From Pseudomonas hormoni (GTDB taxonomy: Bacteria > Pseudomonadota > Gammaproteobacteria > Pseudomonadales > Pseudomonadaceae): 64,000 bases of DNA. Positions 4,475 through 11,836 of the stretch are shown piece by piece. A model generated the notes under the pieces. That model saw nothing but the letters and a program-made list of their open reading frames with translations, made no database searches and was not told the DNA's origin. Where the stretch lies: positions 4,078,001 to 4,142,000 of the forward strand of contig NZ_CP075566.1 in the NCBI RefSeq assembly GCF_018502625.1, read 5' to 3'. The translations under genes were made by a program, and so were the position numbers. Every line of letters begins with the position of its first letter. Position 1 is the stretch's first letter.

Positions 4475-5473
4475 TCAGAGCAACCCATCACTTTCAGGTA
4501 GCTCATACTCCGCCGCAACCTTACCCAACGCACCAGGCTTGCCCGGTTTGCTCAACGTCGGCTCCTTCTCCAGACACTCCACCAGATAATCGATCAACAC
4601 CCGCAGCTTCGGCGGCATGTAACGGGTCGGCGAGTGCAGCAGCCACGCACCGCCGTGGTACGACGCCAGAAACGTCCAGTCCGGCAGCACCTGCACAATC
4701 AAACCCTGCTCCAGCGCATAACGCGCCGTGAAGTACGGCAAACTGCCAATCCCGATGTGCTGCAACACCGCGCCCAATCGCACGCCGGTGTGATTGGCGG
4801 CATAACGCCCGCGCACTCCGACGGTGACAGCCTTGGTGCCTTTCTTGAATTTCCATCGCGCATCACTCGGCGTTTCACCCAGGTAAATGCAGCTGTGGTT
4901 GAGCAAGTCGTGGGGATGAGTCGGTGTGCCGTGCTCGGCCAGGTACTGCGGTGTTGCGCAGAGCAAATGGTCGATGGTCAGCAATTGCCGTCCCACCAGC
5001 CCAGCCGGTGGACGGTCGGTAATACGAATCGCCAGATCAACGTTGTCATCGATCAAATCCACCTGGCGGTCTTCGAGCAACAGTTCCACATCCACTTTGG
5101 GATAGCGCCGCAGAAATTCCGGCATATGCGGATGAATCACGAATCGCCCTACGGCTTTGGGCACACTGACTCGCACCAGCCCTTCCGCTTCATGGGTGAA
5201 CTGGCCACTGATTTCCATCACTGATTTGGCCGCGCTCACCATCTCCTGGCAGCGCTTGAATACTTCCTCGCCACCGTCGCTCAGCCGCAGCTTGCGCGTT
5301 GTGCGTTGCAGCAGGCGCGTGGCGAGCGCCTTCTCCAGACGCGAAATGCTGCGACTGATCGCCGACGGTGAAGAGCCCAACTGACGCGCCGCTTCGGAGA
5401 AGCTTCCGGTCTCGACAACCTTGACGAAAATCGCCATTTCACCCAGCAACGGCAGTGGAAGATTTGTGCTCAC
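4475..5473 (-). CDS. LysR-family transcriptional regulator
   Basis: LysR-type regulator of 332 residues, usual length being about 300. It starts with GTG at 5473. The N-terminal winged helix-turn-helix covers about residues 10-70, with GSFSEAARQLGSSPSAISRS as the recognition part. The effector-binding domain follows, with VDLAIRITDRPPAGLVGRQL typical of the CrgA/DhcR-type branch. It is divergent from the alaX-oxygenase-exporter unit with only 91 bp between starts. LysR proteins usually control the divergent gene, so it is the obvious candidate regulator of that unit; this is inference from arrangement. Its last 40 residues are less conserved in character. Confidence 0.9.
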   Translation of the reverse strand: MSTNLPLPLLGEMAIFVKVVETGSFSEAARQLGSSPSAISRSISRLEKALATRLLQRTTRKLRLSDGGEEVFKRCQEMVSAAKSVMEISGQFTHEAEGLVRVSVPKAVGRFVIHPHMPEFLRRYPKVDVELLLEDRQVDLIDDNVDLAIRITDRPPAGLVGRQLLTIDHLLCATPQYLAEHGTPTHPHDLLNHSCIYLGETPSDARWKFKKGTKAVTVGVRGRYAANHTGVRLGAVLQHIGIGSLPYFTARYALEQGLIVQVLPDWTFLASYHGGAWLLHSPTRYMPPKLRVLIDYLVECLEKEPTLSKPGKPGALGKVAAEYELPESDGLL

Positions 5474-5564
5474 GGTGCAACAGTCCTTTGATGTTTGAAC
5501 GGATTATCACGCAATTCCACGCTTCATATAATAAAAAACAGAAACTTTAATGAGGGCATGGAAT

Positions 5565-6191
5565 ATGACGCTACGCCTCTTTTTCCATAGTGATGACCTC
5601 AAGGCCAACGTGGAAGTACTGGAATGCACGCCTCACGAGAACGAGTTCGCCGTGGAGTTGCGCGCAACACTGTTTCACCCTCAGGGCGGTGGACAGCCGT
5701 TTGACACCGGCTGGATAGGCGAAAGCGAGGTCTTGCGCGTGGTCCAGGATCCGGACCGGATCATCCATTTCGTCGACCGCCCGGTAAACCCCGGCATGAC
5801 CCAGATTCGCGTCGATGAACCACGTCGTCAGTTCAATACACGGATGCATTCCGCCGGCCATTTGATCGGCCATTTCGTACAGGCCATGGGCTGGATGCCG
5901 ATCAAGGCTCATCACTGGCCGGGCGAAGGACGTGTGCAGTTCAAACCGACGGATTCAGCACAGGAAGTTGATGCCCGGACCGTCGAGTTCGGCATTGAAC
6001 AATGGATCGCCCATGACCTGCCGCGTCTGACCTCGCTGCGCGAAGGCGCCCGGGAAATCGGTTTCGGTGAACTGCCCGCCTACGGCTGTGGCGGCACCCA
6101 TGTACGTAGCCTGAAGGATTTGGGTACGGTCACGATCGCTTCTGTTTCGCAGAAGAAAGGAACGCTGTCAGTCCACTACAGCGTGGATTGA
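5565..6191 (+). CDS. AlaX-type alanyl-tRNA editing hydrolase (free-standing)
   Basis: A 208-residue stand-alone homologue of the editing domain of alanyl-tRNA synthetase. It hydrolyses wrongly charged aminoacyl-tRNA. The ATG at 5565 is preferred to the ATG at 5550, because the GAGGG ribosome site (5552-5556) overlaps the earlier codon. All four zinc ligands expected of the family are present: H95 and H99 (H-S-A-G-H) and C175 and H179 (C-G-G-T-H). The nucleotide-recognition loop GGGQPFDTG is at 41-49. It heads a unit with a 2OG oxygenase and a LysE exporter. In that context it may clear tRNA charged with a non-standard amino acid rather than Ser or Gly; that role is inferred. Confidence 0.88.
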   Translation: MTLRLFFHSDDLKANVEVLECTPHENEFAVELRATLFHPQGGGQPFDTGWIGESEVLRVVQDPDRIIHFVDRPVNPGMTQIRVDEPRRQFNTRMHSAGHLIGHFVQAMGWMPIKAHHWPGEGRVQFKPTDSAQEVDARTVEFGIEQWIAHDLPRLTSLREGAREIGFGELPAYGCGGTHVRSLKDLGTVTIASVSQKKGTLSVHYSVD

Positions 6192-6231
6192 GCAAGTGGG
6201 CGATGCCGATTCCGGCCTCGCCTGGCGCCGG

Positions 6232-6253
6232 GGAACCTGCATTCGCGGGTTCC
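6232..6253 (+). other. Intergenic hairpin between alaX-like gene and oxygenase
   Basis: GGAACCTGC (6232-6240) pairs with GCGGGTTCC (6245-6253), 9 bp with one G-T wobble, closing an ATTC loop. No T-run follows. It could be an RNA processing or stabilising element or a partial attenuator inside the 91-bp gap. Confidence 0.5.
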
Positions 6254-6282
6254 GTTGACTATCCGATAGATGGACCTGAACC

Positions 6283-7053
6283 ATGATGCTTGACGTCGAG
6301 CGTCTCGATGAGACGTGCATAAAAAAACTGGCCAACGAAGAAGTCCTCGCCATCCGGGTCAAAGGCTTCCTGCCCCCGCCGCTGGCGATTCAGATCGGCG
6401 ACAAAATTCTCGCGCCCGGCTTTGAAGGCTATATCAACGCGCCGAGCATCGGTCGAATCGGCATGGCATTTTATGAAGCGGAAAACCAGCCACTGCTGAT
6501 CGAGGATTATTTCGAGCGCGCCACGCGCAACATCGCGGAATTACGCAATCGTTGCGCGCCCTATTCGTCCCCGGTCGACACCTTGCGTTGCATGCTCGAT
6601 GAGTCCTGGCCCGCGGGTGCCCATCTGGAAAACCTCTACGGTCGCAAGATGTATGTCGGACTGTCCCGTGTGGTGAAACCGGGCGTGTGTTTTCTGGCCC
6701 ACCACGACATTTTCGCCAAGGACGCCCCGGACAGTTTTCAGGCCAAAAGCCTCGACGCGCAGTTCGCCTGCAATGTTTACCTGAACATGCCCACCGAGGG
6801 CGGCGCACTGCAGATGTGGGACCACGACATTTCCCCGGACCAGTTCGACGAAATGCGCGGCGACAGTTACGGCATCGATCCAGCGCTGCTCGGTACCCCG
6901 TCCCTGGAGGTCTGTCCCGAGCCGGGTGATTTCATCATGTTCAATTCGCGCTGCATGCACTCGGTGACACCGGGTGTGGCCGATCCGCGCTTGAGCCTTT
7001 CATTCTTTGTCGGCTATCGCGGCAATGCTTCACCCCTTACGTTCTGGAGTTGA
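6283..7053 (+). CDS. 2-oxoglutarate/Fe(II)-dependent oxygenase, probably acting on an amino acid
   Basis: A 256-residue cytoplasmic protein with the non-heme iron facial triad laid out as H140-x-D142 (F-L-A-H-H-D-I-F) and H226 (R-C-M-H-S-V-T-P-G), with R236 ten residues later as the likely 2-oxoglutarate anchor. D142 is intact, which favours hydroxylation over halogenation; radical halogenases such as BesD have Gly there. The size, late Trp (W255) and layout resemble the free-amino-acid oxygenase/halogenase group, but this rests on motif memory only. Start is ATG 6283 or 6286; the ribosome site is weak. The stop is one base before the LysE exporter gene, and an AlaX editing enzyme lies upstream. 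Confidence 0.75.
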   Translation: MMLDVERLDETCIKKLANEEVLAIRVKGFLPPPLAIQIGDKILAPGFEGYINAPSIGRIGMAFYEAENQPLLIEDYFERATRNIAELRNRCAPYSSPVDTLRCMLDESWPAGAHLENLYGRKMYVGLSRVVKPGVCFLAHHDIFAKDAPDSFQAKSLDAQFACNVYLNMPTEGGALQMWDHDISPDQFDEMRGDSYGIDPALLGTPSLEVCPEPGDFIMFNSRCMHSVTPGVADPRLSLSFFVGYRGNASPLTFWS

Positions 7054-7054
7054 G

Positions 7055-7696
7055 ATGCAGTATTCGAATTACCTGGGCGAGTTCCTGGCGCTGGCGACGA
7101 TTCACTTTCTGGCCGTGGTCGCACCGGGGCCGGACTTCGCAGTCACCATCCGCCAGAGCGTGCGTTTCGGTCGAGGGGTGGGGATCTGTACGGCGCTCGG
7201 CATCGGCGCGGGCATTTCCGTGCATGTGCTTTACACCTTGCTCGGCGTTGGCGCATTGATGCACACCACGCCCTGGCTGTTGACGGTGGCCAAGGTCGTG
7301 GGCGGCGCCTACATCCTGTACCTCGGCGTCAGCCTGTTGCGCAGCCAACCCAAATCGGTGCTGGAGGGCGAAAAGGACGCAGACGAACCGATGGTCGAGC
7401 AAACGCTGCTGAAGGCGTTCACCACCGGGTTCCTGACGAATGCTACCAATCCCAAGGCCACGCTGTTTTTCCTGGCGATCTTCACCACCCTCATCAGCGC
7501 TACGACACCGCTCAACATTCAGGCGCTCTATGGCGTCTGGATGTGTTTCGTGAACGCGTTGTGGTTTGTGATCGTCGCGCTGTTCTTCTCCAGCAGTCGT
7601 GTGCGCGTGCTGTTCATGCGCATGGGGCACTGGTTTGAACGCACCATGGGGGTGATTTTAATTCTGTTCGCGGGCAGGTTAATTCTGTCGATGTGA
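7055..7696 (+). CDS. LysE/RhtB-family amino-acid exporter
   Basis: A 213-residue inner-membrane protein of the LysE superfamily, which exports amino acids or their derivatives. The ATG at 7055 follows the oxygenase stop (7051-7053) by one base and has TGGAG 5-9 bases upstream; a longer in-frame start inside the oxygenase gene is unlikely. The family signature V-A-P-G-P-D-F at about residues 21-27 and the six hydrophobic segments are clear. N-P-K-A-T-L-F-F appears near residue 129, also characteristic. The tight coupling to the oxygenase suggests that it exports the oxygenase product. A terminator follows at 7714. Confidence 0.92.
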   Translation: MQYSNYLGEFLALATIHFLAVVAPGPDFAVTIRQSVRFGRGVGICTALGIGAGISVHVLYTLLGVGALMHTTPWLLTVAKVVGGAYILYLGVSLLRSQPKSVLEGEKDADEPMVEQTLLKAFTTGFLTNATNPKATLFFLAIFTTLISATTPLNIQALYGVWMCFVNALWFVIVALFFSSSRVRVLFMRMGHWFERTMGVILILFAGRLILSM

Positions 7697-7713: not shown

Positions 7714-7746
7714 AAAAGGTCCGCGCTGTTTAATTGCGGACCTTTT
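7714..7746 (+). terminator. Rho-independent terminator after the LysE-type exporter
   Basis: GGTCCGC (7718-7724) pairs with GCGGACC (7736-7742), flanked by an A4/T4 extension of the stem. It ends the alaX-oxygenase-exporter unit. Confidence 0.85.
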
Positions 7747-9145: not shown

Positions 9146-9221
<76 letters not shown>

Positions 9222-9224
9222 AAA

Positions 9225-9300
9225 TGGCGTCCCCTAGGGGACTCGAACCCCTGTTACCGCCGTGAAAGGGCGGTGTCCTAGGCCACTAGACGAAGGGGAC
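9225..9300 (-). tRNA. tRNA-Glu (anticodon TTC), second copy
   Basis: A 76-nt cloverleaf with encoded CCA. The acceptor begins GTCCCCT and the anticodon loop CTTTCAC gives TTC. It is three bases from the adjacent tRNA-Gly and identical to the copy at 9485-9560. Confidence 0.98.
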
Positions 9301-9404
9301 ACGCTGCCCGGAACACATGGTGTGTGTTTCGGTGCCCAGAGCCGCATCCGAAGACTTGGTTCTGGTTTCACTCAGCCCTGCCCGAAAGCAACGCTGTTTA
9401 AAAT

Positions 9405-9480
<76 letters not shown>

Positions 9481-9484
9481 ATAT

Positions 9485-9560
9485 TGGCGTCCCCTAGGGG
9501 ACTCGAACCCCTGTTACCGCCGTGAAAGGGCGGTGTCCTAGGCCACTAGACGAAGGGGAC
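9485..9560 (-). tRNA. tRNA-Glu (anticodon TTC), first gene of operon
   Basis: Same 76-nt sequence as the 9225-9300 gene, with encoded CCA. It is the first tRNA downstream of the strong promoter at 9623-9651. Confidence 0.98.
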
Positions 9561-10778: not shown

Positions 10779-11470
10779 GTACATCCTGGGAAGATTGGTC
10801 TGCTGCCAGGTCGTCATCGCAGGCAAGCCAGCTCCCACAGGGGTTCCGGGTACATCCAAAAGAACAGGTCGGCTGTCGGGCCGCCATCGCTGGCAGGCCA
10901 GCTCCCACAGGGGTTCCGGATACATCCACGAGAACAGGTCGGCTGTCAGGCCGCCATCGCTGGCAGGCCAGCTCCCACAGGGGTTCCGGGTACATCCAAA
11001 AGAACGGGTCGGCTGTTGGGCCGCCATCGCTGGCAGGCCAGCTCCCACAGGGATTCCGGGTACATCCAAAAGAACAGGTCGGCTGTCGGGCCGCCATCGC
11101 TGGCAGGCCAGCTCCCACAGGGGTTCCGGGGACATCCTAAAGAACAGGTCGGCTGTCGGGCCGCCATCGCTGGCAAGCCAGCTCCCACAGGGGTTCCGGG
11201 GACATCCAAAAGAACAGGTCGGCTGTCGGGCCGCCATCGCTGGCAGGCCAGCTCCCACAGGGATTCCGGGTACATCCAAAAGAACAGGTCGGCTGTCGGG
11301 CCGCCATCGCTGGCAGGCCAGCTCCCACAGGGGTTCCGGGTACATCCAAAAGAACGGGTCGGCTGTTGGGCCGCCATCGCTGGCAGGCCAGCTCCCACAG
11401 GGATTTCGGTACATCCACGAGAACAGGTCGGCTGTCAGGCCGCCTTCGCGAGCAAGCTCGGCTCCTACAA
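10779..11470. repeat. 70-bp tandem repeat array with about nine REP-containing units
   Basis: Head-to-tail units begin at 10811, 10881, 10951, 11021, 11091, 11161, 11231, 11301 and 11371, each exactly 70 bp except the last (69 bp). A degenerate half-unit lies on the left and a REP-like partial unit on the right (11440-11470). Each unit contains a REP core (GCTGGCAGGCCAGCTCCCAC) plus a linker and the module CAGGTCGGCTGTCGGGCCGC. Units differ by a few substitutions only. Because 70 is not a multiple of three, all frames stay open on both strands, but the resulting peptides are artefacts. The same orientation throughout is unlike normal inverted REP doublets. Confidence 0.97.
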
Positions 11471-11489: not shown

Positions 11490-11836
11490 AACCAAACCAC
11501 GAGGCCGAGCGTTAGCTCGCCTTGCGCTTTTGATTTTGGTCTGCCCGCCCCTTCGGGAGGCTGAGTGGAGGTTCTGCGCAGTGGGCAACCCGGCATGGAT
11601 GCCGGGTTAGCCGCCCCCGGCCATGGATGGCCGATGGCGGCGGGCCCACGGAGCAGGACCGGAGCGAGGGAACTCCGAGCCCAGGCGAGGAGCCGGACGC
11701 TGGGGCGAAGCCTTTTGCTTACTTTTCGGCGTTTGGAAAAGTGAGTCGCCGTAAGGGCGAAACCGCCAGCAGCCGTTACCGCAGAAATGGATATATACAC
11801 CGACAACAAGAACCTGGTCGGCTACCAGGCCGCCAA
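11490..11836 (+). repeat. Structured dispersed repeat, copy A
   Basis: A roughly 300-bp element, best conserved from GGTTCTGCGCAGTGGGC (11571) to 11797. It contains an inverted repeat around 11587-11608, a second around 11618-11633, a hairpin near 11719-11744 and a short CGCC/GGCG hairpin near 11747-11759. Copies B and C occur at 15509-15803 (minus) and 15951-16200 (plus). An open frame runs through it, but structure conservation explains the similarity better. Confidence 0.9.

Follow-up and report, generated by a model that had tools for sequence, protein, structure and literature searches.

In Streptomyces cattleya and MA37, the deacylase FthB hydrolyses mischarged analogue-tRNA and FthC exports fluorothreonine (PMC7408626). 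In the isoleucine dioxygenase (IDO) operon of Bacillus thuringiensis, a 2-oxoglutarate (2OG)-dependent enzyme that hydroxylates a free amino acid is encoded beside an amino acid exporter, and the Hil operon comprises a LysR regulator and HilA (PF13640), with an antimicrobial product being proposed (PMC3684760). Here we describe a locus of Pseudomonas hormoni, located in a stretch of 64,000 nt (contig NZ_CP075566.1; the whole stretch is called the window below), in which genes for an AlaX-type trans-editing protein, a 2OG-Fe(II) oxygenase and a LysE-type exporter follow each other next to a divergent LysR-type regulator gene. The initial annotation had seen in them a possible module to make, proofread and export an unusual amino acid. 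We lean, with moderate confidence, to the view that the genes form a cassette for production of, immunity to and export of an amino acid analogue, and that the oxygenase-less alleles of the locus are immunity-only versions.

According to this proposal, the oxygenase would act on a common metabolite, which would most likely be a free amino acid, and oxidise it to an analogue which aminoacyl-tRNA synthetases could mischarge. AlaX would act as the self-immunity gene by hydrolysing the mischarged tRNA, and LysE would secrete the analogue, which would then burden neighbours without AlaX. LysR, perhaps as a sensor of the analogue, would regulate AlaX and its downstream genes. Genomes harbouring LysR-AlaX or LysR-AlaX-LysE and no oxygenase would be immune non-producers. 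The gene content, the co-conservation, the nested occurrence of the genes, the motif upstream of AlaX and the carriage on plasmids are observed; for the substrate, product, tRNA target, toxicity and LysR ligand of the cassette, this is what we infer.

The co-conservation of the trio had been named beforehand as a test of the module. In a sample of 298 Pseudomonas genomes, searched for the oxygenase at E 1e-10 or better, 80 had a match and 62 an orthologue (at least 90% identity), the other matches being 26-36% identical. AlaX lies within 2 kb of the orthologue in all 62 genomes (in G034 it is split over two frames), and LysR and LysE are also present in the 30 of 30 orthologue genomes whose flanks were covered. 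A separate collection contributed 80 named Pseudomonas loci, and every one of them has LysR, AlaX, oxygenase and LysE in the same order; these are the best 80 of 142 matches, all from Pseudomonas, and no random sample. The test was run and the trio held together, also in other genera. The trio with LysR was found in another genus of the Pseudomonas family (L139) and in L114 and L156 (probably Acidihalobacter), and the trio in L138 and L152, which belong to the genus of G936 (probably Xenorhabdus). The Photobacterium trios are damaged, with AlaX and LysE in pieces in L135 and the oxygenase in two pieces in L133. Outside Pseudomonas the oxygenase is rare, with matches in 4/369 genomes of the class, 4/398 of the phylum and 3/194 of the order, the genome of the window being counted each time. 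A search of this genome revealed AlaX at one place and the oxygenase at one place.

The AlaX-oxygenase pairing recurs in distant bacteria in other arrangements. In Caballeronia (L162), Embleya (L176), Undibacterium (L175), L115 and L159/L158 the pair is in the reverse order, with the oxygenase first, and without a LysE match in the stretch covered; in Embleya it is followed by a major facilitator superfamily (MFS) transporter. The stretch of L115 ends near the oxygenase, its 5' side being outside the view. The Undibacterium oxygenase was missed by tblastn, is taken from the record annotation and forms a long branch in the oxygenase tree. In this tree of 32 chosen rows, the AlaX-linked oxygenases (together with L151) are not one clade (p-AU 1.9e-6) and at least four label changes are forced, the exact placements being unsure owing to several long branches. 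At L159 (4272-10523), the oxygenase-AlaX pair is located beside genes for a trypsin-like protease, an AAA ATPase and a large FGE-sulfatase-domain protein, a neighbourhood which resembles a conflict-system island.

The trio is also carried by plasmids. Four genes are listed on a mobilizable plasmid of Acinetobacter johnsonii of 6,362 bases, namely a mobilization gene and the trio; an integrase-domain open reading frame (ORF) and small ORFs were also seen on it, the gene table of the plasmid collection being incomplete. An Achromobacter record of equal length has the same LysE, AlaX and mobilization genes and in addition a relaxase, and its oxygenase match spans the record start. These two plasmids were counted once, since the strain names come from one sequencing series and cross-contamination is possible. 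Among 15 plasmid records with an oxygenase match, AlaX is adjacent in six (H1-H5 and H9, with H4 being the H2 plasmid). No AlaX is adjacent in seven others inspected (H6, H7, H8, H10, H11, H12 and H14), H13, a second record of the H12 organism, has an AlaX match about 74 kb away, and H15, where 39% of the query is matched, has no AlaX match. Matches to AlaX were found in 35 plasmid records, and 14 of them were inspected around the match. LysR-AlaX-LysE is present without an oxygenase alongside on a 15-kb plasmid of Acinetobacter johnsonii, and LysR-AlaX on one Klebsiella and one Chimaeribacter plasmid, while the plasmid AlaX of Cupriavidus, of one of five Pantoea and of A. venetianus has neither this LysR nor LysE alongside. 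Carriage by phages or viruses was seen neither in an IMG/VR scan nor in phage records.

Since the listing for the 6.4-kb plasmid has nothing but the trio and mobilization genes, the substrate should be a widespread metabolite. The same plasmid bears on the idea of a product that serves as a signal or as a building block, with AlaX only limiting misincorporation and with inter-bacterial toxicity not being the function. The authors of the Hil work proposed signal roles, beside antibiotic ones, for hydroxyisoleucines (PMC3684760), but on the trio-bearing plasmid we saw no gene for a receptor or for assembly, and the retention of AlaX and LysE without the oxygenase would be hard to explain; we consider this idea very improbable. 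A wider version of the cassette proposal, which we put forward tentatively, is that of a bacteriocin plasmid in minimal, mobile form and with a small molecule as the toxin: the enzyme would be the toxin maker, the tRNA editor the immunity and the exporter the release, and at a single chromosomal site populations would consist of producers, immune non-producers and sensitive members. In this case, distant bacteria would repeatedly have brought together an oxygenase that makes a toxin and an editing enzyme that gives immunity.

AlaX has matches in 141 of the 298 Pseudomonas genomes (E 1e-10). It is present without an oxygenase orthologue in 79 genomes, and in 74 of them at the same site as the full locus, adjoining acyl-CoA dehydrogenase and PA2817-family genes. 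Inspection of 78 revealed 62 with LysR and AlaX and 12 with LysR, AlaX and LysE at the shared chromosomal site, and four with AlaX elsewhere; the 79th, G051, has a broken AlaX copy on a plasmid (L174). LysE and LysR were counted only at more than 45% identity and up to 2.5 kb from AlaX, and L211 and L213, in which a 34% LysE-like gene lies beside AlaX, were scored as AlaX only. Among the 74 copies at this site, those of G030, G106 and G223 are disrupted or incomplete. The motifs HxxxH, CGG[ST]H and GGGQ are kept in 74 of 80 AlaX frames, scored with G034 and the second G139 copy included, and the six that fail are fragments, frameshifted or divergent. Because AlaX without the oxygenase at the same site (74) slightly outnumbers the full set (62), it appears to be a separable protective gene. 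In the Pseudomonas loci inspected, the oxygenase occurs only with LysE and AlaX, and LysE only with AlaX; these loci were found via AlaX or the oxygenase, and the statement on LysE applies to copies met in this way. This nested pattern is what would be expected for a producer needing immunity.

A LysR tree of 160 rows requires at least nine changes in oxygenase presence, at least four of them forced by starred branches. It was made by a quick method with a simple model from proteins of at least 280 residues (160 of 161 kept). A group of 93 rows (support 80) comprises 81 full loci, with seven LysR-AlaX and five LysR-AlaX-LysE loci scattered inside. The outgroup (L114 and L156) was chosen, and the tree does not separate gain from loss. 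Since full loci lie outside (L114, L156 and L139), loss of the oxygenase with retention of AlaX would be the simpler reading.

The oxygenase-free alleles could also mean that the whole locus serves detoxification. LysR would then sense an exogenous toxic amino acid, for example from a plant, AlaX would clear the tRNA, LysE would export the compound and the oxygenase would inactivate it, and there would be no weapon. Synthetases do activate exogenous analogues, azetidine-2-carboxylate among them (PMC5741666), and the AlaX-only and AlaX-LysE states are common and have the same upstream motif (see below), as graded resistance would give. We nevertheless regard detoxification as unlikely: an inactivating oxygenase should serve without AlaX, yet AlaX adjoins it in 62 of 62 genomes (one frameshifted), and export and oxidation of one compound would be redundant.

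The number of LysR-AlaX loci, the commonest oxygenase-minus state (62/79), brings up another explanation, namely that AlaX is an ordinary LysR-controlled editor (of Ser-tRNA(Ala) and the like) and that an unrelated pair of genes, those of the oxygenase and LysE, was inserted behind it. It would fit with AlaX proteins being known as deacylases of Ser/Gly-tRNA(Ala) (PMC11295145). However, in Caballeronia, Embleya, Undibacterium, L115 and L159 the oxygenase and AlaX adjoin each other in opposite order where this LysR and LysE are absent, the plasmid trio occurs without LysR, and a gene with matches in less than half of the Pseudomonas genomes is no universal housekeeping gene. We give this explanation a low probability.

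Several observations weigh against a producer cassette. The genomes with LysR-AlaX only equal the full ones in number (62 each), and AlaX may serve some separate purpose. Within Pseudomonas, a single site harbours the locus and inheritance is largely vertical, so that the 62 genomes are not independent. L151 (genus of G936; probably Xenorhabdus bovienii) has the oxygenase and LysE without AlaX, with transposase-like ORFs upstream, and in G034 the oxygenase is intact beside the split AlaX. Around the Pseudomonas oxygenase relatives of 26-36% identity, neither AlaX nor LysE was found in 15 of 15 places inspected (24 listed). Finally, the fold neighbours of the oxygenase include WelO5, a halogenase of a non-amino-acid substrate. 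The module as first proposed is supported in part. Its make-proofread-export logic stands, as the genes of the trio keep together beyond Pseudomonas and the pairing recurs in other arrangements, but AlaX is separable, the principle has precedents, and the action of the oxygenase on a free amino acid is still something we infer.

In the genus of G936, oxygenase relatives had no AlaX in the four places inspected of six. Seen beside the distant relatives were either a cyclodipeptide-synthase-like ORF with an MFS gene, or a gene of the aromatic amino-acid decarboxylase type, or non-ribosomal peptide synthetase, short-chain dehydrogenase/reductase (SDR) and EamA genes. A distinct oxygenase subfamily (about 29-36% identical), which spans Pseudomonas and the genus of G936, lies beside the cyclodipeptide-synthase-like ORF in L117 (3742-6774), L121, L123, L130, L153 and L154, with the MFS gene also present in L117. 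The label relies on a Pfam match in L117 only, with none in L153, and on ORF resemblance in L121, L123, L130, L153 and L154; for L119, L120, L122 and L124 it was assumed in the tree from the subfamily. In L127 and L128 (Pseudomonas), the oxygenase relative adjoins the decarboxylase-type gene (PF00282, tested on L127).

The oxygenase is a member of PF13640 (37.6 bits, cut-off 27, E 4e-9), and its metal-binding residues H140, D142 and H226, pointed out in the initial annotation, are invariant in 33 aligned oxygenases. Against PF22814 it scored 19.3 bits, below the cut-off of 27, yet many homologues carry a precomputed PF22814 label. HilA was the sole NCBIfam family matched at E 0.001 (E 4e-4), and the score against the curated HilA model was 19.8 bits, far under the cut-off of 500. 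The fold neighbours are WelO5, which acts on indole alkaloids, and SadA, which acts on N-substituted amino acids, at 16-19% identity. WelO5 is without the metal-binding carboxylate, and the title of a G166D variant among the structure matches agrees with this, whereas the oxygenase of the window keeps the carboxylate (D142) and so differs from WelO5.

A BesD-like lysine halogenase/hydroxylase was considered and rejected, since the metal motif is flanked by different residues. In BesD, a Gly replaces the metal carboxylate, and the substrate residues H137 and D143 lie beside the metal histidine (PMC13244439), whereas the oxygenase has D142, F137 and I143 at the BesD offsets from this histidine. 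BesD is not among its PDB sequence matches, nor among the fold matches listed, the latter being no evidence either way. The comparison with BesD-like enzymes and amino acid hydroxylases, suggested at the outset, gave no BesD residues, a weak HilA likeness, and WelO5 and SadA as fold neighbours. A 28% relative on a Streptomyces cattleya plasmid (L132; Streptantibioticus cattleyicolor pSCAT) first looked BesD-like and was rejected, with no BesD match among PDB sequences (E 1). No AlaX is present in the stretch of L132 that was read, and an AlaX match lies about 74 kb off in the same record. By ORF reading, the neighbours of this relative resemble another oxygenase, a pyridoxal phosphate enzyme and an SDR.

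The match of AlaX to PF07973 is weak (21.6 bits, under the 24-bit cut-off), and it scored 62.5 bits against the curated AlaXM model, the cut-off of which is 300. Judged by these scores, it is a divergent subfamily and not a canonical AlaXM. Its closest PDB sequences are 9iuw and 2e1b (AlaX-M structure), and a profile from 31 AlaX relatives matches both with E about 1e-36 over positions 1-197. The four zinc ligands described initially are present in HxxxH/CxxxH motifs and conserved across the 31 relatives, with H95, H99 and H179 invariant and C175 in at least 90%. While these ligands and the GGGQ motif are in common with 2e1b and 9iuw, the GHHWPGE-like motif of many relatives of the window AlaX is not found in the two in the alignments shown.

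LysE is a clear member of PF01810 (122.4 bits, cut-off 25.6). Against TIGR00949 (homoserine/threonine efflux) it scored 150 bits (E 4.5e-44), under the cut-off of 184. Because of this exporter type and of an editing-domain family common to AlaRS and ThrRS, a small hydroxylated, Ser/Thr-like product is our weak guess.

The LysR gene is present in 80/80 named Pseudomonas loci. About 60 bases 5' of AlaX, the sequence TTG-N12-16-TTATC was found in 157/157 LysR-AlaX loci and in 18/3140 mononucleotide shuffles. Loci in which the AlaX match starts past residue 5 were left out (157 of 161 kept), the count is descriptive since the motif was picked after viewing an alignment of 11 loci, and independence is overstated since the rows are mostly Pseudomonas. 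The oxygenase is present in 83 of the motif-bearing loci, and those without it number 13 and 61; in the alignment of the 11 loci the stretch is visible across genera. In the window, a promoter-like site with a score of 10 of 12 consists of the -35-like hexamer TTATCA and TATAAT with a spacer of 17, where the promoter scan found 2 sites vs 1.0 expected. Because TTATCA doubles as the -35-like hexamer, the conserved stretch may be a promoter, a LysR site, or both.

The coordinates of the features are given in Table 1. The ORF coordinates agree with the initial description of three consecutive genes on one strand and a divergent LysR gene. However, position 5474, given there as the start of the span, is the first intergenic base, and no gene starts at it. 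The intergenic gap is 91 bases both between LysR and AlaX and between AlaX and the oxygenase, and LysE starts one base past the oxygenase stop codon. For AlaX, an alternative in-frame ATG exists at 5550, while the alignment of relatives begins at 5565. As to the single terminator proposed initially, a hairpin that is a likely terminator folds 3' of LysE; its loop of 9 bases kept it from a simple terminator scan, which allows loops of up to 8 and was uninformative (2 sites vs 3.9 expected from shuffles).

Table 1. Features of the locus, with positions in the window.
Feature	Position	Strand	Remarks
LysR-type regulator	4475-5473	-	divergent from AlaX; PF00126/PF03466
AlaX-type trans-editing protein	5565-6191	+	208 aa; zinc ligands H95/H99/C175/H179, GGGQ motif
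2OG-Fe(II) oxygenase	6283-7053	+	256 aa; PF13640, WelO5/SadA-like fold; facial triad H140-x-D142 + H226
LysE/RhtC-type exporter	7055-7696	+	213 aa; PF01810, E 2e-35
Regulatory stretch, conserved	5488-5532	+	TTG-N13-TTATC at 5488-5508; TATAAT at 5527-5532
Intrinsic terminator hairpin (likely)	7714-7746	+	fold z -3.5

The gap between AlaX and the oxygenase (6192-6282, plus strand) can be folded into stems (z -2.0), and an attenuator or an RNA processing site is possible there. Downstream, a Zeta/PezT-like toxin gene (PF06414; 7784-8755, minus strand) lies between LysE and a tRNA cluster. Of the 80 named Pseudomonas loci, L103 alone shows a match at the same place (67% identical), and the gene may have been inserted recently at a site that varies. 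The tRNA cluster comprises two tRNA-Gly(gcc)/tRNA-Glu(ttc) pairs (9146-9560, minus strand); such tRNA genes are located behind the locus in 6/9 Pseudomonas loci checked vs 0/15 other loci, and the region is possibly a hot spot of gene turnover. Further on, a tandem array (10797-11449) has a 70-base unit in 9.3 copies with 93% matches and long overlapping ORFs on both strands, and is followed by an Rfam TwoAYGGAY match at 11583-11647.

If the cassette proposal is true, competing bacteria would be using translation proofreading for immunity, and the on/off pattern across natural Pseudomonas populations would make this directly testable. Further, AlaX beside an oxygenase would be a handle in genome mining for new amino acid antimetabolites and 2OG hydroxylases.

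A search of the open-access PMC library gave no paper with both words AlaX and LysE. The initial statement that no system of this exact composition is described agrees with the available parts of the papers on FthB/FthC and the IDO operon in that both differ in composition, but the principle has precedent in both. The IDO and Hil operons have a reductase, and Hil also a second hydroxylase, while the sections available of PMC3684760 name no tRNA-editing gene. FthB and FthC combine a dedicated deacylase with a dedicated exporter, and the gene layout of our locus, with a putative deacylase and an exporter beside the presumed analogue-making enzyme, would fit such a system. Fluorothreonine is made by a fluorination pathway, whereas the cassette of the window has one oxygenase. 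Moreover, FthB is related to ProXp-ST1 of the INS superfamily (PMC11295145), whereas the putative deacylase of the window is an AlaX and belongs to another family. Plasmid carriage and putative immunity-only alleles were seen for the cassette of the window, and the available text of PMC7408626 and PMC3684760 does not mention such things for FthB/FthC or for the IDO operon. By analogy, the cassette of the window may work like FthB/FthC without being homologous to it.

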